From an uncultured Eubacteriales bacterium (lineage in GTDB: Bacteria; Bacillota; Clostridia; Oscillospirales; Acutalibacteraceae), in NCBI GenBank assembly GCA_900315195.1, contig OMYD01000029.1:1-36164 (forward strand): DNA of 36,164 bases, read 5' to 3'. Positions 1,456-36,088 of the stretch are shown here, in pieces. The position numbers and the translations under genes are program-made. The notes under the pieces are model-generated. The model worked only from the letters and a program-made list of their open reading frames with translations, was not told where the DNA came from and did not search any database. Numbering within the stretch: position 1 is the first letter of the stretch; each line of letters begins with the position of its first letter.

Positions 1456-3147
1456 TTACCAGTTGAAAAGACGGTCCCAAAGGTTGTCGTCTGACTGGAA
1501 ATCATCCTGCTTTTCATTTGTGTTAGGCTTTGCCGAGGGAATATATTCGGTAAGCTCAAGTGAGATATCCTGAGTTTTTCCTGATCTGGAAACCGAAAAA
1601 TTAACCGTATCGCCTACTGATTTATTTTTAAGAGCCTTGTTGATATCCGCCGTGCTCGAAACCTCGGTTCCGTTAACCGCGGTAATCAAGTCGCCTGAAT
1701 GGAAACCTGCCTCCTCGGCTTTTGAGCCTTTATCAACTGAGAGAACATATACGCCGAGCTTATTTACGTTGTAATAGAACGCGGTATCATAGGAATTAAT
1801 GTCTACAAACTTCATGCCTGTGTCGATTTTATCTCTGCTGTAGCCGTATTCCTTGAGGTCTTTGATAATATTCGAAACGGTATTTATAGGGATAGCAAAC
1901 GCGATACCTTCAACCTCGGTCGCGCTGTCCTTTGCGTTTACAATACCAACCAGCTTTCCCTCAGCGTTGAACAGACCGCCACCAGAGTTGCCGGGGCTGA
2001 TCTGAGCGTTTGTCTGGAGTAGGGTAAGGTTCTTGTTCTCAATAGTAACCTCACGGGCAAGAGCGCTTATAATGCCGTCGGTTACGGTGCCGCCCAAAGT
2101 TCCCAGCGGGTTGCCGATTGCGATTACATAGTCGCCTACTACAAGGTTGCTGCTGTTGCCGATTTCCGCCGCGGTAAGTCCCTTGGCGTCTATTTTCAGA
2201 AGCGCGATATCATTGTCCTCGTCGCTGCCTATAAGCTTTGCGTCATATGAGGTTGTGCCGTCGCGCAGTGTTACGGTGATTTTATTAGCGTTCTCAATAA
2301 CGTGATAGTTTGTAATTATATAGCCGTCATCCGAGATAATAACACCTGAGCCCGCGCCCTTTGCCGCGTAGCGCTGTGAGAAACCTCCCGAAACGGTTGC
2401 CTCGGTAACGATTTCAACAACGCTGTTGGCCGTCTTTTTAACGATGTCTGAGGTGCTGAGCGCCGACGTTTTAGTGGAGGCGTTTGTAATGTTATTGCCG
2501 GAAGTGCCTGAAGTTGTTTCCTGAGTTGAGGAGGAGCTGTCGGAGCTGTCAGAGCCGTTAAGCTTACCGGCCATTATTCCGCCGCCGAAGCCAAGCGCTG
2601 TTGAACCCAGCATAGCGATTGCAAGCGCTGCCGCTACAAAACCCTTTGAAGCCGATTTTTTCTCTTTTTTAGGCTTCTTAGCCGCATTGACTACCTTATG
2701 CGAATTGTAAACGGTGCCTGCGCTGTAAGCATTTTCTCCGTTTGAGTAATCGGCGTATTGACCTGCGTAAGGATTAGCGCTATGACTGTCTGAGTATACG
2801 TCATCGGCAGTTGTGTTTTGGCGCGCGCTGCTTGAATAAGCGTCATCGTAGTTATTGGGATTGTGTTCGGCGTTAGCGTTGTTGCCGTTTATATATGAAT
2901 AGTGGTACTCTCCGTCTGAGTAATTGCGGTCGGAGTTCCACTCGTAAGAGCTTTCCTGAACAGGCTCGCTTGCCTGCGTAACCTGAGTTTGCTCGGTTTG
3001 ATAATCATATCCGTCAAAATTATCGCGGGTTTTTTCAAATCCGCTTAAATCCTCGTGAGCGACGGGCGCTTCGTCAAAGCCACTGTTAGGTTGGTTTGTA
3101 CCGGGGGTTTCATCATAGCTGTTGTTTTCATAAAAATTGTCTGACAT
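1456..3147 (-). CDS. htrA: HtrA/DegP-type membrane serine protease with PDZ domain
   Basis: Surface protein-quality protease, 563 residues. Order: a hydrophilic cytoplasmic region rich in Asp, Asn, Tyr and Ser (1-155), a Lys-rich stretch, one membrane segment (about 169-193), a Ser/Thr-rich linker, a trypsin-like domain with catalytic His282, Asp313 and Ser388 (in PGNSGG), and one PDZ domain (about 445-535) with GVYVLSV and GDLITAVNG. The start is fixed by GGAGG 7 nt upstream. A TATAAT at 3188-3193 (minus strand) is a possible -10 box, but no good -35 is seen. It is probably monocistronic, and a long stem-loop follows. The large disordered N-terminus is longer than in Bacillus HtrA but is seen in many Clostridia. 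The catalytic set is complete, so it should be active outside the membrane. Confidence 0.95.
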   Translation of the reverse strand: MSDNFYENNSYDETPGTNQPNSGFDEAPVAHEDLSGFEKTRDNFDGYDYQTEQTQVTQASEPVQESSYEWNSDRNYSDGEYHYSYINGNNANAEHNPNNYDDAYSSSARQNTTADDVYSDSHSANPYAGQYADYSNGENAYSAGTVYNSHKVVNAAKKPKKEKKSASKGFVAAALAIAMLGSTALGFGGGIMAGKLNGSDSSDSSSSTQETTSGTSGNNITNASTKTSALSTSDIVKKTANSVVEIVTEATVSGGFSQRYAAKGAGSGVIISDDGYIITNYHVIENANKITVTLRDGTTSYDAKLIGSDEDNDIALLKIDAKGLTAAEIGNSSNLVVGDYVIAIGNPLGTLGGTVTDGIISALAREVTIENKNLTLLQTNAQISPGNSGGGLFNAEGKLVGIVNAKDSATEVEGIAFAIPINTVSNIIKDLKEYGYSRDKIDTGMKFVDINSYDTAFYYNVNKLGVYVLSVDKGSKAEEAGFHSGDLITAVNGTEVSSTADINKALKNKSVGDTVNFSVSRSGKTQDISLELTEYIPSAKPNTNEKQDDFQSDDNLWDRLFNW

Positions 3148-4130: not shown

Positions 4131-5957
4131 TCAGGACTTTTTATTGCGGAATTGCTGCTTCATGCGCTGTTCCTTTGAGAGGATTCTTTTGCGCATACGG
4201 ATATTTTCGGGAGTAACCTCAACAAGCTCGTCGTCGGCAATAAACTCAAGGCACTGCTCAAGCGACATAATAGTAGGAGGCGTAAGTTTTAGAGCGTCGT
4301 CAGAACCCGAGGCGCGCGTGTTGGTGATGTGCTTTTTCTTGCAGACGTTAACGGTGATGTCGTCTGACTTGGGGCTGGCGCCGACGATCATGCCCTCGTA
4401 CACGGGAACGCCCGCGCCGATAAACAGCCTGCCCCTCTCCTGAGCGGCATACAGACCGTAGGTTACGGAATCGCCCGTTTCAAAGGCGATGAGCGAGCCC
4501 TGGTGACGGGTGACTATTTCGCCCTTAAACGGCTCGTAGCCGTCGAAAACGTGGTTCATAATGCCGTTGCCGTTGGTGTCGGTCAAAAACTCGGGACGGT
4601 AGCCCATAAGGCCTCTGGCGGGGATTCTGAACTCAATGTGGGTAACTCCGCCGTCACGGGTGCCCATGTTGATAAGCTCAGCCTTGCGTGAGCCGAGCTT
4701 TTCCATTACCGCGCCGACGTATGAATCGGGGACCTCAACGATAAGGTACTCCATAGGCTCGCAAAGCTTGCCGTCAATTGTCTTGGTGATGACCTCGGGG
4801 CGCGATACCTGGAACTCATAGTTCTGGCGGCGCATTGTTTCAATCAGAATTGAAAGGTGAAGCTCGCCGCGTCCGGATACCTTGAAGGTGTCGGCGCTGT
4901 CGGTCTCCTCAACCCTGAGGGCGATGTTTGTCTCGGTCTCTTTAAACAGCCTGTCGCGGATGTTTCTCGATGTGACGTACTTGCCCTCTCTGCCCGCAAA
5001 GGGTGAGTTGTTTACGATGAAGTTCATCGTAACGGTGGGCTCGTCTATCTTAACGAAGGGAAGCGGCTCAACGCAGTCGTTTGAGCAGAGCGTTTCGCCT
5101 ATATTAATATCCTGAACGCCGCTTATGCATACGATGTCGCCGATTGAAGCCGAGTCGCACTCGGTGCGTTTTAGCCCCTCAAACTGATAGAGCTTGCCGA
5201 TTTTTACGACCTTTGTTGTGCCGTCGGCGTGGCAGAGAGTGACGGACTGACCGTTCTTTACCGAGCCGCGCTCAACTCTTCCGACTCCGATTCTGCCGAC
5301 AAAGTTATCGGCGTCGATATTTGAAATCAGGATTTGCAGACCGCCGTCGAGCTCGCCCTTAGGCGCGGGAATCTCGTTTACGATCGCCTCAAAGAGCGGC
5401 GTCATGTCGGTGCCCTGATTGTTATAATCGTCTGTAGCGTAGCCGTCGCGGGCCGAAGCGTAGATTACGGGGAACTCAAGCTGCTCGTCGTCGGCGCCCA
5501 GCTCGATAAACAGATCGAGGACTTCGTCTACGACCTCCTCGGGGCGCGCGCCCGGACGGTCGATTTTATTGAGCACTACTAGCGGCTTTTTGCCGAGCCC
5601 CAGAGCCTTTTTAAGCACAAAGCGGGTCTGTGGCATACAGCCCTCAAAAGCGTCTACAAGCAGAACTACGCCGTCTACCATTTGCAGAATACGCTCAACC
5701 TCGCCGCCGAAATCGGCGTGTCCGGGGGTGTCTACGATATTGATTTTGATGTCCTTATACATAACCGCCGTGGGTTTTGAAAGGATTGTAATGCCGCGCT
5801 CGCGCTCCAGGTCGTTTGAGTCCATAACGCGCTCCTCAACAGCCTCGTTCTCGCGGAAAACGCCGCTCTGACGGAGAAGCTGGTCGACAAGGGTCGTTTT
5901 GCCGTGGTCGACGTGCGCGATAATTGCTATATTTCTGAGGTTTTCTCTGGTATCCAT
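4131..5957 (-). CDS. typA: Ribosome-associated GTPase TypA/BipA
   Basis: Translational GTPase of 608 residues, the usual family length. It is related to EF-G/LepA and helps 50S assembly and stress or cold adaptation. G1 is AHVDHGKT (residues 14-21), followed by the RGITI effector region, DTPGH (G3), NKID (G4) and SAR (G5). Then come the beta-barrel domain II, the EF-G-like domains III and V, and the TypA-specific C-terminal domain ending in basic residues. GGAG lies 8 nt before the ATG. A strong promoter (5993-6021) precedes it, and the exonuclease gene follows in the same operon. Confidence 0.97.
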
Positions 5958-5992
5958 ATACTATACTCCGATTCTTATAATATTACCTATAT

Positions 5993-6021
5993 ATTATAGC
6001 ACCGCGGGGCTTACAATTCAA
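5993..6021 (-). promoter_or_regulatory. Sigma-A promoter of typA
   Basis: Minus strand TTGAAT (6016-6021), 17-bp spacer, TATAAT (5993-5998), giving a leader of about 30 nt before typA. Confidence 0.75.
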
Positions 6022-6080: not shown

Positions 6081-6185
6081 CGGCAGCGTGACGCTGCACC
6101 CGGCGCGCCTTTGGAGAAATTGTAATAACAAAAAGGTTTCTGCAACGGCGCGTCATAAATCGCGGGAACGGAAGTTTTGTTTACT
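6081..6185 (+). repeat. Dispersed AscI-containing repeat, copy B
   Basis: Bases 6081-6120 are identical over 40 bp to 10286-10325. They include the palindromic CAGCGTGACGCTG, an AscI site GGCGCGCC, and CTTTGGAGAAAT. Weaker similarity continues to about 6185 (an AACGGCGC block, then ACGGAAGTTTTG). It sits in the gap between typA and rex, and no gene is visible between 6022 and 6381. Confidence 0.8.
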
Positions 6186-6236
6186 GCAAACGTCTGATTC
6201 GCGTATTGGGTATTGAGGTACGCTTGCCGTTTCATT

Positions 6237-6268
6237 CGTAGGGGCGCACCCATGTGTGCGCCACTACG
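6237..6268. repeat. Palindromic GTAGGGGCGCAC hairpin repeat
   Basis: CGTAG-GGCGCAC pairs with GTGCGCC-CTACG, 12 bp with one G/A mismatch and a 6-nt loop. The GTAGGG end resembles the end of the element at 70-158. Similar GC-rich palindromes are common between genes in Ruminococcaceae. No T-run follows, so it is not a typical terminator. Confidence 0.55.
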
Positions 6269-6344
6269 ACATTAACGGATAAGTTTTATTGACAGGGTTT
6301 GACACGCCGTTAACAAAACCCTTTCCGCAACAGCAGCGTCCGAA

Positions 6345-6372
6345 TATAAAAGGCGCGCGGAAACCGCACGCC
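6345..6372 (-). terminator. Terminator of the acn-icd-rex operon
   Basis: On the minus strand a 9-bp GC-rich stem (6364-6372 with 6352-6360, one T.G pair) and a 3-nt loop are followed by TTTTATATT. It begins 10 bp after the rex stop codon. Confidence 0.85.
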
Positions 6373-6381
6373 TTAACAGAA

Positions 6382-7023
6382 TTATTTACTTTCCATGTTT
6401 GTCATTCGGTAGCACAGGGTCATCAGGTTGTCGCTGAGGTGAACGTTTTCAACGACCGTGTCGCTGTATTTTGCGCTGATGTCGAAGTGGCTGAAATTCC
6501 AGTAGCATTTTATGCCCAGCTTATAAAGCCGCTCAAGCGTCTGCTCAACATTCTGGCGAGGAATACACATAAACGCCGCGTCAACGTGCTGAGCGCTGCA
6601 AAAATCCTCGAGCTCGGATTCATCGCGGATGACGATATCGCCCAGCATTCCGCCGATTTTATCGCGGTCGATTTCAAAGCCGCCCACAAGCTCAAAGCCC
6701 AGCTTGTTGAAGTCGAGGTGCTTGGAAACGGCGGTGCCGAAGTTGCCCGCGCCGATAAGAATAGCTTTAAAGCTGTTGTCAAGCCCCAGAATATGCCTTA
6801 TTTCATTTTTAAGCTGGCTTACGCTGTAGCCGTAGCCCTGCTGACCAAAGCCGCCGAAGCAGTTTAAATCCTGCCTTACCTGAGAGGCGGTGACGTTCAT
6901 AATCTGAGCCAGCTTGGTTGATGAAATGCGCTCTACGCGCTGCTCGTCCAGCTCGGACAGAAAGCGGTAATACCTTGGAAGCCGCCTGATTACCGACATC
7001 GAAATACTGTCGCTTTTTGACAT
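6382..7023 (-). CDS. rex: Redox-sensing transcriptional repressor Rex
   Basis: Repressor of 213 residues that senses the NADH/NAD+ ratio. The N-terminal winged helix carries the family signature SQVRQDLNCFGGFGQQGYGY (residues 47-66). The Rossmann domain begins with GAGNFG (91-96), and a C-terminal swapped helix ends the protein. AAAGGAG lies 11 nt before the ATG. It is the last gene after icd, with a 34-bp gap and no terminator between. A Rex-type operator overlaps the promoter of the operon (10243-10260), so autoregulation together with acn and icd is likely. Rex is widespread in Firmicutes, but I do not know of this exact gene partnership as a common arrangement. Confidence 0.96.
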   Translation of the reverse strand: MSKSDSISMSVIRRLPRYYRFLSELDEQRVERISSTKLAQIMNVTASQVRQDLNCFGGFGQQGYGYSVSQLKNEIRHILGLDNSFKAILIGAGNFGTAVSKHLDFNKLGFELVGGFEIDRDKIGGMLGDIVIRDESELEDFCSAQHVDAAFMCIPRQNVEQTLERLYKLGIKCYWNFSHFDISAKYSDTVVENVHLSDNLMTLCYRMTNMESK

Positions 7024-8266: not shown

Positions 8267-10197
8267 TAGCTGTTCTCCTTTGTATAGTCAAGCAGTCCGC
8301 CCGCGATGATAATAGCTCTTGTTCTGTCGGACAGCTCACATTCGGCTTTAACAGTCTCGCCGTTTGTCTTGTTTACTACGGTAATATCCGAAGCCGCGGC
8401 GATTTCCGCCTTGACATCGGGGAGCTCAAGCATATCGCCGAGCTTGATTTTGTCATAATCGGAAGCGTCCTTGAAGGTTAGGGGCAGGATACCCGCGTTG
8501 ATGAGATTGCTCTTGTGAATACGCGCGAAGCTCTTGACCAGCACAGCCTTTACGCCGAGGTACAGAGGCGCCAGAGCCGCGTGCTCACGCGATGAGCCCT
8601 GACCGTAGTTTTCGCCGCCGACAATAATGCTCTTGCCCAGAGTCTTTGCTCTTGCGGGGAACTCCTTGTCACATACGGTGAAGCAGTGCTCGGAGATTTT
8701 CGGGATATTTGAGCGCAGGGGCAGAATCTTAGCGCCCGCGGGCATGATGTGGTCGGTGGTGATATTGTCGCCGACCTTGAGCGAGCACGAAGCCTCGATG
8801 CTGTCGGTGAGGGGACTTGTCTTTGGGTATTCCTTGATGTTGGGACCGCGCAGGATCTCAACGCTGTCCATCTCCTCAACGGGAGCAGGGTCGATAACCA
8901 TGTTGTCGTTGATGAGGAACTTCTCGGGCATTTCGATTTCAGCCGCCGCGCCCAGGCTTCTGGGGTCGGTAAACACGCCCGCAAGAGCCGAAACCGCCGC
9001 TGTCTCGGGAGATACCAGATAAATCTGACCGTCGGCTGTGCCGCTTCTGCCCTCAAAGTTGCGGTTGAAGGTTCTCAGCGATACGCCCTTGCTGTTGGGC
9101 GACTGACCCATGCCGATGCAGGGGCCGCACGCGCTTTCAAGGATTCTAGCGCCTGCCGCGATCATGTCGCCGAGAGCGCCGTTGAGAGCCAGCATATTGA
9201 ACACCTGCTTGCTTCCGGGAGCGATCGCCAGAGAAACGTTGTCGGCAACCTTTTTGCCCTTGAGGATGTGCGCAACGCGCATCATATCGAGATAGCTTGA
9301 GTTGGTGCAGGAACCGATGCATACCTGGTCTACGGTCTTGCCCTCAAGCTCTTTGATAGTCTTGATGTTGTCGGGAGAGTGCGGGCACGCCGCGAGCGGC
9401 TCAAGCTCGCTGAGGTTTATTTCGATAACCTCGTCATAAACCGCGTCATTATCAGCGCTCAGCTCAACGTAGTCCTCTTCCCTGCCCTGAGCCTTCAGGA
9501 AAGCTCTGGTGATTTCGTCAGAGGGGAATACCGAGGTGGTAGCGCCAAGCTCCGCTCCCATGTTTGTGATGGTAGCGCGCTCGGGAACGGTAAGAGTCTT
9601 AACGCCCTCGCCGCCGTACTCAACGATTTTGCCTACGCCGCCCTTAACGCTCATAACGCGCAGAACAGCCAGAATGATGTCCTTGGCGGAAACCCAGGGA
9701 CTGAGCTTGCCCGTCAGGTTTACTCTTACCATTTTAGGCATTGTGATGTAGTAAGCGCCGCCGCCCATTGCTACGGCTACGTCAAGGCCGCCCGCGCCGA
9801 TAGCTAGCATGCCGATACCGCCGCCTGTGGGAGTGTGGCTGTCAGAGCCTATTAAGGTCTTGCCGGGCTTGCCGAAACGCTCCAGATGTACCTGGTGGCA
9901 GATTCCGTTGCCGGGACGTGAAAAATAAATGCCGTGCTTTTTGCACACCGACTGAATAAAGCGGTGGTCGTCGGCGTTTTCAAAGCCTGTCTGTAATGTA
10001 TTGTGGTCGATGTAAGCGACGCTCTTCTCCGTCTTTACGCGCGGAATGCCCATCGCCTCGTATTCGATATAAGCCATTGTGCCCGTAGCGTCCTGAGTCA
10101 GCGTCTGGTCTATTTTAAGACCGATGTCGTTGCCGACTGCCATTTCACCCGATACAATGTGCTCTTTGATTATCTTTTGCGCAATCGTGTATCCCAT
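8266..10197 (-). CDS. acnA: Aconitate hydratase (short, Aquifex/Clostridia type)
   Basis: Isomerises citrate to isocitrate, 643 residues. This is shorter than E. coli AcnA and matches the short single-chain type found in Clostridia. The 4Fe-4S ligands are Cys297 (CIGSC), Cys357 and Cys360 (CGPC). The [12 protein letters not shown] substrate loop is at about residues 116-127. The C-terminal swivel domain has [12 protein letters not shown], then [20 protein letters not shown] lies 7 nt before the ATG. It is the first gene of acn-icd-rex, under a near-consensus promoter overlapped by a Rex box. Confidence 0.95.
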
Positions 10198-10423: not shown

Positions 10424-11146
10424 CTATTTCTTTGCGTGGATTCTTTTTTCCTCGCCCCTTCTCAGGCGTTTTATGTTCTCCTTGTGCATAACCGTTGCGA
10501 AAATGCCGATTACAAGCGCGCAGAACGTTGACACAAGCACATACCACAGACAGTTTTGGGTGAGCAGGTGGTCAAAAATAAACGTCACCGCAAAAGTGTA
10601 CGGCGCGTACATTACAGCGCCCGTAATGCTACCGAGGGAAATGATTTTGCTGATGATAAATACAATAAGGAAGGTTCCCAGAACAAGCAGGAACACGCGC
10701 CAGTCGGACGCCAGCATAAGCGCCGCCGCCGTAACGATTCCCTTGCCGCCCTTAAAGTGGAAGTATAGCGGAAAGCAGTGTCCCAGAATACAGAACACGC
10801 CCGCGAAATACTTTACGCATTTCAAAAAGCAGCTTTTAAACCATTCGTCGCCGCCCGTAATGCCTGCGAACCATACAAAAATGAAATATGCGATAAACAC
10901 CGCCGCAATGCACTTTAACGCGTCGCATACGATTGTAATAATCGCGGGGCCCTTGCCCACCGAGCGCAAAACGTTTGTAAAGCCCGCGTTTCCGCTGCCC
11001 ATATCGCGGATATCAGCCTTGCCCTTTGTGGCGATTTTAGTGACGATAACCGCTGGGTTAATGCTGCCGATAAGGTAAGAAATAACCGCGCAAATCAGGA
11101 AAAGATACCAGTTATTGACAAAGTTTTCGGTTACTATTTTGAGCAT
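10424..11146 (-). CDS. plsY: Glycerol-3-phosphate acyltransferase PlsY
   Basis: Membrane enzyme that transfers the acyl group from acyl-phosphate to glycerol-3-phosphate, the first step of phospholipid synthesis. It has 240 residues and about five to six membrane segments. Conserved loops are SYLIGSINPAVIV, IRDMGSGNAGFTNVLR, and GHCFPLYFHFKGGKG, which contains the phosphate and acyl-phosphate binding residues. It is slightly longer than the usual 200-220 because of an extended loop and a basic C-terminal tail. Its ATG overlaps the der stop codon by one base (TAATG). The der-plsY pairing is common in Firmicutes. Confidence 0.95.
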   Translation of the reverse strand: MLKIVTENFVNNWYLFLICAVISYLIGSINPAVIVTKIATKGKADIRDMGSGNAGFTNVLRSVGKGPAIITIVCDALKCIAAVFIAYFIFVWFAGITGGDEWFKSCFLKCVKYFAGVFCILGHCFPLYFHFKGGKGIVTAAALMLASDWRVFLLVLGTFLIVFIISKIISLGSITGAVMYAPYTFAVTFIFDHLLTQNCLWYVLVSTFCALVIGIFATVMHKENIKRLRRGEEKRIHAKK

Positions 11147-12468
11147 TATTTATCTCCCCTCTCGCGTATGATGATTTTCACGGGTGTTCCCTCAAGCCCG
11201 AACGCCTCTCTTATGCGGTTTTCAAGATAGCGCTGATACGAAAAGTGGAACAGCTCCTTATCGTTGCAGAAGAACACGAATGTCGGCGGCTTTACGCCCG
11301 CCTGAGTCATATAGAATATTTTAAGGCGCTTGCCCTTGTCTGACGGCGGCTGAACTCGGGTTGTTGCCTGTGCCAGCAGCTCGTTGAGCATGCCTGTTGT
11401 AATGCGGCGGTTGGTGTTTTCAAAGCACATCACAATGCTCTCAAAAAGCTTGTCAACGCGCTGACCTGTTTTCGCTGAGATAAATACCTGAGGCGCGTAG
11501 GACATGAACGCGAAATCAGTATCAAGCTTCTTTTTGAACTCCTGCATGGTTTTGTCGTTCTTTTCAACCGCGTCCCACTTGTTGACGGCGAGAATACACG
11601 CGCGCCCCGCGTCATGGGCAAGTCCCGCCACCTTGGTGTCCTGCTCGGTAATGCCCTCGGTAGCGTCAATCATGATAACGCAGACGTCGCTGCGCTCAAT
11701 AGCCATTTTAGCGCGGAGAATGCTGTACTTTTCGATGTCGTCATATATTTTGCTCTGGCGGCGCAGTCCCGCCGTATCGGTAAAGTTGAATTTGCCGAAG
11801 CGGTTCTCAACCAGAGTGTCGATCGTATCGCGCGTTGTGCCCGCTATGTCGGACACAATACAGCGCTCCTCGTCGGTGATTTTATTTATAAGCGAGGATT
11901 TGCCCGCGTTAGGCTTGCCTATAACGGCTACATTTATTACGGAGTCGTCATCGCCCTCCTCGTCGGAAAAGCTGAGGAACTCAAACACGCGGTCAAGCAA
12001 ATCACCCGTGCCGTGGCCGTGAACAGCCGAAACCTGAACGGGATCGCCCAGGCCGAGGTTATAAAACTCATAAAACTCCATAGGCGGGTCGCCTACGGAA
12101 TCGCATTTATTTACGCAGAGCACAACGGGCTTGCCCGACTTCTGAAGCATTTGAGCGACTTCAACATCGGTCGCTACCATGCCGCTTTTGAGGTCGGTTA
12201 CAAGGATGATCGCCGAGGCGGTGTCGATTGCGAGCTGAGCCTGACGGCGCATTTGTGAAAGGATAATATCGTCGCTTTTAGGCTCGATTCCGCCCGTGTC
12301 AACCACCATGACAGACCTGCCGCACCACTCAATTTCGCCGTAAATACGGTCGCGGGTAACGCCGGGAGTGTCATCGACGATAGACAGCCGCTGCCCGATA
12401 AGCTTATTAAACAGAGTGCTTTTGCCGACATTAGGCCTGCCGACAATAGCGATAACGGGTTTGCTCAT
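11146..12468 (-). CDS. der: Ribosome-assembly GTPase Der (EngA)
   Basis: Essential double GTPase for 50S maturation, 440 residues, the usual length. The first G domain begins with GRPNVGKS (10-17), DTGG and NKCD. The second begins with GKPNAGKS (184-191), DTAG and NKWD. A KH-like domain (about 355-440) closes the protein. The ribosome site is GGGGG 6 nt before the ATG. The upstream leader holds the hairpin array at 12488-12690, and no clear promoter is seen. The gene may be transcribed from inside the array or by read-through from rpmF. Confidence 0.97.
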   Translation of the reverse strand: MSKPVIAIVGRPNVGKSTLFNKLIGQRLSIVDDTPGVTRDRIYGEIEWCGRSVMVVDTGGIEPKSDDIILSQMRRQAQLAIDTASAIILVTDLKSGMVATDVEVAQMLQKSGKPVVLCVNKCDSVGDPPMEFYEFYNLGLGDPVQVSAVHGHGTGDLLDRVFEFLSFSDEEGDDDSVINVAVIGKPNAGKSSLINKITDEERCIVSDIAGTTRDTIDTLVENRFGKFNFTDTAGLRRQSKIYDDIEKYSILRAKMAIERSDVCVIMIDATEGITEQDTKVAGLAHDAGRACILAVNKWDAVEKNDKTMQEFKKKLDTDFAFMSYAPQVFISAKTGQRVDKLFESIVMCFENTNRRITTGMLNELLAQATTRVQPPSDKGKRLKIFYMTQAGVKPPTFVFFCNDKELFHFSYQRYLENRIREAFGLEGTPVKIIIRERGDK

Positions 12469-12487
12469 TTTTTACCCCCTTAACAAT

Positions 12488-12690
12488 GATTTGCAAGGCA
12501 GATCAATTCATTTGCCGCAGGCAAAATTCATGGCAAAGCCAATTCATGAACCGTCAGGTTCAATTCATTCTTGGCAGAAACGTTTATGATATATAAACCT
12601 TATATGCAGGAATTAATTGTTGCTTACGCAACATGAATTTACTTCGTAATGAATTGCCGCAAGCGGCATGAACTGACAGCTTTGCTGTCA
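12488..12690. repeat. Array of short variable hairpins with AATTCAT/ATGAATT linkers
   Basis: Hairpins in order: 12488-12504 (7 bp), 12511-12525 (6 bp), 12531-12541 (4 bp), 12547-12562 (6 bp), 12568-12579 (4 bp), central 12582-12598 (6 bp), 12618-12633 (6 bp), 12639-12649 (4 bp), 12655-12668 (6 bp), 12674-12690 (7 bp). Stems differ in sequence, while the 7-nt linkers stay nearly constant. They read AATTCAT in the left half and ATGAATT or ATGAACT in the right half, so the array as a whole is an inverted repeat about a centre near 12590. It fills the gap between the rpmF terminator and der and has no coding potential. The family name is unknown to me. Confidence 0.85.
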
Positions 12691-12696
12691 TTAAAA

Positions 12697-27381: not shown

Positions 27382-27542
27382 AATACTAATTTCCATTAAA
27401 ACGCTTTTATTCAGATGTTAGCGGAAAACTCCGCAGAACAAGGCGGAAGACGCAGGAATCCTGACGGATTCCGAGGATGACAACGCAGTTATGCGGATTT
27501 TTACGCAACAGATGTTAAAGGGTTTTATTGGATATTAGTATT
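27382..27542 (+). mobile_element. MITE-like structured element, copy 1 (161 bp)
   Basis: Terminal inverted repeats of about 25-38 bp: AATACTAATTTCCATTAAAA on the left and, reversed, AATACTAATATCCAATAAAA on the right. The core is flanked by the direct repeat CAGATGTTA (27412-27420 and 27509-27517). It contains the hairpin GGAATCC-TGAC-GGATTCC (27455-27472) and the closing pair CCGCA/TGCGG. There is no transposase gene. The second full copy is at 23792-23951, and a core-less copy is at 33353-33413. Confidence 0.8.
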
Positions 27543-27789
27543 AAACACAGCGACGGAGAGAGTAGCACAAAATCACTGCCCTGAAAGAGAGACGCGTCGG
27601 CGGCTGAAAGCGCGTTAAGGCGGCTTTGTGTGAAGTTCACTCCCGAGTGGCGCTCCCGAAACAGCAGTAAGGAGCGACGGGCACGCGCCGTTATACGCGT
27701 TGAGAGCTTATCGTCACTGCGCGATAAGAATAAGGGTGGTACCGCGGATTATTTCGTCCCTATGTCATTTTGACACAGGGACTTTTTTT
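27543..27789 (+). promoter_or_regulatory. T-box riboswitch (phenylalanine) of pheST
   Basis: The T-box antiterminator sequence AGGGTGGTACCGCGG is at 27733-27747. The competing terminator is GTCCCT-A-TGTCA paired with TGACA-C-AGGGAC (27756-27782), followed by seven T. The stem I start GAGAGAGTAGCA is visible at about 27556. The likely specifier triplet is TTC (Phe) at 27636-27638 within GAAGTTCACTC, which agrees with the downstream phenylalanyl-tRNA synthetase genes. Uncharged tRNA-Phe should stabilise the antiterminator and switch on pheST. Confidence 0.95.
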
Positions 27790-36012: not shown

Positions 36013-36088
36013 GGGGGTATAGCTCAGATGGTAGAGCGCTTGGTTCGCATTCAAGAGGTCAGGGGTTCGATTCCCCTTATCTCCACCA
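36013..36088 (+). tRNA. tRNA-Ala, anticodon CGC
   Basis: A full cloverleaf of 76 nt with encoded CCA. The acceptor GGGGGTA pairs with TATCTCC and includes the G3.U70 pair that marks alanine tRNA. The anticodon loop is TTCGCAT (anticodon CGC, codon GCG). The T-arm contains GGTTCGATTCC. An extended -10-like TGGTATAGAAT lies about 30 nt upstream. Confidence 0.97.

Follow-up and report, generated by a model that had tools for sequence, protein, structure and literature searches.

A hairpin comb between rpmF and der of an uncultured clostridium as a probable geneless copy of a mobile element with an S23P gene

The gap between rpmF and der in the genome of an uncultured Acutalibacteraceae bacterium holds a symmetric array of small hairpins, and the locus raises the question of what kind of element this array is and which gene, if any, belongs to it. 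The window analysed here is the whole stretch of 36,164 nt of contig OMYD01000029.1. Base-by-base reading bounded the element at positions 12486-12691, with the order AT, four hairpins, centre, four hairpins and AT (Table 1). The original prediction had the place of the array right, as about nine hairpins over 203 bp; the reading gave eight linker-bounded hairpins (4+4) around a 43-nt centre over 206 bp. The 7-nt linker inverts at this centre, as had been claimed, with four exact AATTCAT linkers on the left and ATTAATT, two ATGAATT and ATGAACT on the right. Thirteen other copies, a stub among them, and a relic in a sister genome at the site of another copy served to fix the ends of the element. 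The gene der was located at 11146-12468 on the minus strand and rpmF was also read as minus strand; the element stands behind the rpmF terminator, where it had been said to lie, and 17 bp before the der start codon. Elsewhere in the window, no other 250-nt stretch contained a 7-mer five times or more in a scan by steps of 50 nt that ended about 150 nt before the last position. Gathering-score matches to Rfam 15 in the window were a T-box leader (27541-27764, + strand, 123 bits) and a tRNA gene (36013-36085, + strand), with none over the array.

Table 1. Parts of the comb element in the rpmF-der gap (positions in the window).
Feature	Position	Strand	Basis or remark
Whole geneless comb element	12486..12691		206 bp
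Hairpin 1, GATTTGC-AAG-GCAGATC	12488..12504	+	sequence reading
Linker AATTCAT	12505..12511	+	exact pattern match
Hairpin 2, C(GCA)G loop	12512..12524	+	reading and pattern
Linker AATTCAT	12525..12531	+	exact pattern match
Hairpin 3, GGC-AAA-GCC	12532..12540	+	reading and pattern
Linker AATTCAT	12541..12547	+	exact pattern match
Hairpin 4, C(GTCA)G loop	12548..12561	+	reading and comparison of copies
Linker AATTCAT	12562..12568	+	exact pattern match
Variable centre, 43 nt	12569..12611		sequence reading
Linker variant ATTAATT	12612..12618	-	sequence reading
Hairpin 5, C(GTAA)G loop on - strand	12619..12632	-	sequence reading
Linker ATGAATT	12633..12639	-	7-mer scan
Hairpin 6, C(GAA)G loop on - strand	12640..12648	-	sequence reading
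Linker ATGAATT	12649..12655	-	7-mer scan
Hairpin 7, GCCGCAAGCGGC	12656..12667	-	sequence reading
Linker variant ATGAACT	12668..12674	-	sequence reading
Hairpin 8, GACAGC-TTT-GCTGTC	12675..12689	-	sequence reading

Folding of the array as a single strand gave -74 kcal/mol compared to -50.5 ± 4.0 kcal/mol in dinucleotide shuffles (z -5.9), and 0 of 200 shuffles folded as well. In the source genome, a pattern of three spaced linkers had 23 matches and the reversed pattern, used as a control, had 0. Among 625 inter-linker segments (440 distinct) taken from the fetched loci, 83% had an outer Watson-Crick stem of at least 3 bp compared to 2.5% of shuffled segments, which upholds the claim that the stem sequences vary while pairing is kept. 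Chance, or the composition of AT-rich intergenic DNA, has nothing in its favour beyond the shortness of the linker and is refuted by these three results.

The source genome (2.1 Mb in 125 contigs) is a draft with 96% completeness and 6.3% contamination, and the comparative evidence overall comes mostly from draft genomes. It produced 28 BLAST matches to the array. Fourteen copies were bounded by hand, 13 with a length of 202-229 bp and one 63-bp stub, and additional partial or unbounded copies were present. By eye, 12 of the 13 full copies showed the 4+4 plan while one (L019) was 4+3; the stop codons, the terminators, the repeated tRNA ends described below and the hairpin plan of each copy were all read in this way. 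Stems differed between copies and linkers were constant, and a GAACC...GGTTC hairpin at the place of hairpin 4 was found again in several copies. The copies sit between protein genes in unrelated operons and several start right after a stop codon or terminator. The suggestion that the array belongs to a repeat family was thus borne out, with such units at other loci and in relatives.

In the sister genome G006, three of the 14 copy sites were empty, eight were filled otherwise, by other repeats or a RAYT-like gene, and three had no complete site. The rpmA|obgE junction was empty in G024 and G021 too. One empty G006 site keeps a 15-nt relic, ATGATTTGC/CGTCAT, which corresponds to the first 9 and last 6 bases of the element with the two ends joined at a TTTGC repeat; from this relic the ancestor is taken to have had a copy, with the boundary ATG...CAT taken as right. 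No clear target-site duplication was found in the flanks of the copies or at the empty sites, which have diverged. Transposition, excision and circular forms were not seen in the genomes compared. Comparison of the genomes shows dispersed copies whose sites are empty or differently occupied in sister species, and the element would accordingly be one that either moves or has been lost. Another GC-rich palindromic repeat of GGAACGTGACGTTCC type, partly tandem, was seen in G006 (L578, L571, L572, L577 and L575), where it occupies several of the junctions that hold AATTCAT combs in the source genome.

The gap before der was itself variable. G013 has a comb with other stems and G006 has a counterpart of hairpin 1, one base different, followed by another repeat (L578); unrelated repeats were present in G024 and G043, and little or nothing in G002, G021, G046, G053 and G057. 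A leader specific to der, one of the roles first proposed, does not agree with copies in unrelated operons or with the der gaps of related species, which are short or hold other repeats.

The triple-linker pattern was found in 9 of 98 genomes (source genome included), and 7 of these were comb genomes by reading, from five families of the order. The matches in G041 and G055 were not combs by eye and were not counted as comb genomes; in G055 (C14:6511-6601) the linker pattern had picked up a tandem 14-nt repeat, AATTCATAATGCTT, which is two heptamers long. A wider scan of contigs produced at least 119 stretches, of which 80 were listed. Among those 80, most named matches belonged to uncultured Clostridia and Oscillospiraceae, often of ruminant or deer gut origin, and a few records had other names (including Prevotella, Synergistes, a planctomycete and cyanobacteria). 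In viral contigs, the listed matches to a loose linker pattern (N{6,20}) were judged to be mostly chance, and a stricter pattern gave 10 stretches. The phage contig L117, whose genes include portal- and terminase-like ones by look, has three intergenic combs, at about 221-388, 2872-3030 and 4508-4776.

A total of 227 half-arrays had at least three exact linkers. Four linkers were present in 146 of them, three in 71 and more than four in 10, and growth of the array by addition of units, which had been proposed, was not seen in this distribution. For the counts of half-arrays and inter-linker segments, only L117 and L157 were taken from the viral loci L069-L188, the chance-like viral loci being dropped. 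Both arrangements of the comb halves occur.

The loops of the hairpins were biased by strand. On the AATTCAT strand, 185 triloops included 69 GNA and 5 TNC, and 132 tetraloops included 68 GNNA and 1 TNNC, so that GNA and GNNA together made up 137 of 317 loops compared to 6 of the opposite type. The loop-closing pair was C-G in 259 loops and G-C in 16. The third base of GNNA showed no purine preference (29 to 39, p 0.27), and there was no TTCG loop among the comb loops counted. Nine other linker types, when pooled, showed the same strand trend (25 GNA to 1 TNC of 46). DNA minihairpins with a GNA or GNNA loop on two or more G-C pairs have been described as extraordinarily stable and resistant to nucleases (PMC4686876). 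The unbiased third base and the lack of TTCG speak against an RNA rule and, since the bias falls on opposite strands in the two comb halves, no single transcript carries the bias of both. From the loops we infer that the AATTCAT strand works as folded single-stranded DNA.

These loops bear directly on another early proposal, a transcribed RNA comb, taken here in the wider sense of an RNA that serves the host as a leader, an attenuator or a stabiliser of 3' ends and that selection has spread. Such a comb would fit the strong RNA fold of the array and the intergenic position of the copies, and for published intervening sequences an action at the RNA level with RNase III cleavage is described in the text available (PMC4990558). 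However, the bias is of the DNA-minihairpin type and lies on opposite strands, Rfam has no gathering-score match over the array, copies are missing at the same junctions in a sister species, and the halves exist in both arrangements. An RNA comb was for these reasons considered unlikely.

A candidate gene partner emerged from clustering of the ORFs near combs. An S23P gene was present in 9 loci, beside or between comb halves, and was the sole small protein among the top recurrent clusters; an ABC-transporter-like cluster, named by look, was equally frequent (9 loci). The gene-bearing relatives of the comb encode only this four-helix-bundle protein of approximately 118 aa (PF05635/TIGR02436, S23P), with no known transposase inside. 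Three proteins from comb loci scored 83-92 bits with PF05635 (cut-off 33.8) and 96-103 bits with TIGR02436 (cut-off 24). In L214 the gene lies between the comb halves, and in L355/L476 likewise with the halves the other way round; L476, which is the same place as L355, shares its plan and inner motifs with the geneless combs found in its genome. PF05635 was present in 63 of 98 genomes (source genome included). The single PF05635 match of the source genome has inner TAA and another repeat type, and no intact AATTCAT-type S23P gene was found there by the PF05635 search. In a tally compiled by hand, the AATTCAT-clade gene was present in 4 of 7 comb genomes compared to 1 of 91 others; it was not found among the fetched loci of the comb genomes G000, G069 and G075.

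A pentameric ring is described for an S23P relative in the accessible text of PMC4990558, and 2RLD was the only solved relative found by sequence. The structure model of S23P showed four helices with a mean pLDDT of 93.9. Five residues, Q37, S44, N48, E51 and E74 (numbered on the first row of the alignment), were invariant across 111 otherwise divergent S23P proteins and could be an active site or a structural core. To our knowledge, S23P has no catalytic motif and no catalytic role has been assigned to these five residues.

Another candidate for the moving protein is the Y1 (IS200-like) transposase of REP/RAYT systems, which would move or keep the hairpins. Combs and REP or BIME sequences are alike in being intergenic palindromic hairpin repeats, and REP hairpins are probably recognised as single-stranded DNA. 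Y1 matches are present in the source genome, Y1 genes occur in the same kind of junction, including the argH|argC gap that carries a comb in G013, and PF01797 matched in 6 of 7 comb genomes compared to 44 of 91 others, the matches in G000, G013 and G079 being weak or fragments. However, those 44 genomes have the domain without combs, G078 has combs and no match, and the comb-rich G079 has a fragment only. Y1 loci showed no linker runs, and their array score reached 5 in 1 of 20 loci (10 of 30 loci, shorter than 2500 bases, were dropped). REP hairpins have a GTAG-type foot, whereas the combs have AATTCAT feet, a 7-nt linker, GNA/GNNA loops and usually a 4+4 plan, with no clear Y1 partner; the RAYT-like genes found here have their own (G)TAGGGGCG-type palindromes. 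A Y1-driven origin of the combs was therefore judged to be very improbable. RAYT-like Y1 genes were also observed inside the arg operon, in L251 (G000:C122) at 6155-6647 and 9232-9633 and in L252 at 5512-6009; one of them stands in the argH|argC gap, and palindromes of the same type lie within their reading frames.

The flanks of S23P genes were repetitive in general. At 69 of 110 S23P domains, a 7-mer occurred at least five times in the two 350-nt flanks together, while 41 domains scored under 5, and 73 of 110 beat all 20 flank shuffles. Such a repeated 7-mer was present at 17 of 233 other genes (Fisher 2e-27; S23P contigs and genes within 900 nt of a comb excluded) and at 1 of 20 Y1 loci. 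The 110 domains came from 106 of 145 PF05635 places, four loci having two fragments each; L214, L215 and L476 (counted as copy L355) belonged to the other set. The repeat unit varied between S23P genes. A tandem stretch was found in 57 of 120 S23P loci, with a period of 7 in 47, of 14 in 10 and no other, compared to 35 of 391 control genes (only S23P contigs excluded), with a period of 7 in 18 and of 6 to 13 in the rest. The 18 control stretches with period 7 may be geneless copies. In the other phyla sampled, the period-7 rule held in 7 of 7 loci with a tandem stretch. The comb linkers, too, are 7 nt long. A 7-mer standing at least twice on both flanks was inverted in 38 of 49 cases and direct in 11. 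Many clostridial versions have a hairpin after each 7-nt unit, which makes the comb, usually with four units per half; tandem units predominate in the remaining versions and among the other phyla sampled.

The linker types were then placed on a protein tree of 111 of the 122 domains, with labels from an author-chosen list of 26 motifs that left 53 of the 122 unlabelled. The 54 labelled rows fell into 14 linker groups and required 16 changes, with a minimum of 13 and a shuffled mean of 39.6 (0 of 200 shuffles as low). By this comparison, linker type is clustered on the S23P tree as a whole, with 4 of the 14 groups showing no clustering on their own; 10 of the 12 AATTCAT rows had been found via the linker pattern and two (L518 and L534) otherwise. 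Co-inheritance alone would also give agreeing linker and protein trees.

S23P relatives were also found in 27 plasmid or phage records. Ten were fetched, from cyanobacteria (five), Bacteroidota, a spirochaete, a clostridium and two phages, and all had such arrays, nine by score (with shuffles of two-base blocks) and the clostridium by eye. An S23P element lies between cas2 and cas1 on an Anabaena cylindrica plasmid (L597) and another between hsdS and hsdR on a Monoglobus plasmid (L591). The accessible text of PMC3936711 records 18 S23P genes in cas loci, which could be explained by S23P elements at such sites.

Similarity between loci was used to delimit the gene-bearing unit. Twenty-three pairs of different loci resembled each other over the S23P gene; in 18 of them the likeness ended no more than 245 nt upstream and 47 nt downstream, while the other 5 were alike through both flanks and are probably the same site. 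Flank-divergent pairs were found across families of the order (L460/L466, L502/L519 and L504/L508/L514) and on one contig (L436/L484), and in some pairs the shared part opens with a terminator-like stem ahead of the comb. As judged by comparison of these loci, comb and gene move as a unit, which recurs with unrelated flanks in different families. A same-strand tRNA gene, of many isotypes, was present within 420 nt upstream of 31 of 110 S23P domains compared to 5 of 403 control genes, which were drawn with S23P contigs and comb neighbours included until the sample passed 400. On this comparison, the gene-bearing form prefers the downstream side of tRNA genes. By eye, the tRNA 3' end was repeated around L531 and L536 and a terminator around L459, L460 and L475, as if the target had been duplicated or carried along.

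It could be argued that S23P genes and combs are separate hitchhikers that pile up in tolerant junctions, with S23P as no partner of the comb. In sister species, several repeat families are found at the same junctions, 41 of 110 S23P domains have no scored array, and three comb genomes lack a clade gene among the fetched loci. However, the S23P gene is found inside comb halves, linker type is clustered on the protein tree, comb and gene recur together with unrelated flanks, and the period of 7 is kept in the other phyla sampled. Independent hitchhiking was on balance regarded as quite improbable.

Overall, the array is probably, with a probability of about 0.78, a MITE-like, geneless derivative of an S23P mobile element, with heptamer ends that function as folded single-stranded DNA. 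Mobility and the link to S23P rest on comparison of sequences, from which we infer the part of S23P in the movement. In the proposed mechanism, the AATTCAT-type strand would be exposed and would fold as single-stranded DNA, and a ring of S23P would bind the heptamers or hairpins of its own type. The five linker positions per half (start half-linker counted) would match one per ring subunit. The complex would then be moved either by S23P itself, through the invariant Q, S, N, E and E, or by a nuclease or replication step of the host, and geneless copies would be mobilised in trans. Since the hairpins would matter only through their pairing and loop, and the linker through its sequence, the stems could drift freely. 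Alternatively, S23P may be a passenger or have a role at the RNA level.

The proposed S23P element shares with MITEs a length of about 200 bp, inverted ends, multiple copies (13 full copies of 202-229 bp were bounded) and gene-bearing relatives with the same end type. Unlike MITEs, its ends are combs instead of a single inverted repeat, no clear target duplication was seen, and the gene-bearing form has no known transposase. We know of no described mobile DNA class with these ends and this gene alone. The nearest known thing is the intervening sequence of 23S rRNA, which is defined by its place inside rRNA and in some cases has an ORF of the same protein family, PF05635. In the accessible text of PMC4990558, such sequences are called selfish, their borders form a stem, and tandem heptamers precede the S23p ORF of one of them. 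However, intervening sequences are RNA-processed inserts inside rRNA genes, whereas the present elements are intergenic, multicopy hairpin combs with geneless derivatives; this copy lies in the rpmF-der gap and the others between protein genes, and the S23p ORF is absent from the window copy and present in the gene-bearing relatives. No report joining the S23P family with heptamers or combs outside rRNA was found in searches of open-access literature on the protein and on intervening sequences.

Heptameric repeats are a further point of likeness. STRR is a heptameric intergenic repeat of cyanobacteria, and the origin of heptameric intergenic repeats has long been open, for STRR since about 1990. 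STRR, TAACTGA of Beggiatoaceae and GGGAATC of Xanthomonas resemble the S23P arrays in their 7-nt units, intergenic arrays and distant lineages, and all tandem S23P arrays found have the heptameric period or twice it. The accessible parts of two papers on such repeats name no S23P partner (PMC4679880 and PMC4692102), and the former already raises the idea that the mobile element might be a protein that binds the repeats. A link of the S23P class to the known heptameric repeats is proposed here. In its widest form, to which we give somewhat less than even odds, S23P genes would be the hallmark of a class of mobile DNA that spans phyla and moves without a known recombinase, in which a pentameric ring recognises, on single-stranded DNA, the 7-nt unit that belongs to its own type; the heptameric intergenic repeats (STRR, TAACTGA, GGGAATC and others) would stem from this class, and 23S rRNA intervening sequences would be its rRNA-resident members.

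If true, a large family whose only annotation is 'four helix bundle protein' would acquire a function, and there would be an explanation for why seven-letter tandem repeats are common between bacterial genes, although it may cover only some of them. The intervening sequences of 23S rRNA would join a wider class of mobile DNA, with a very small mobile unit that uses 7-nt recognition units and no known transposase.
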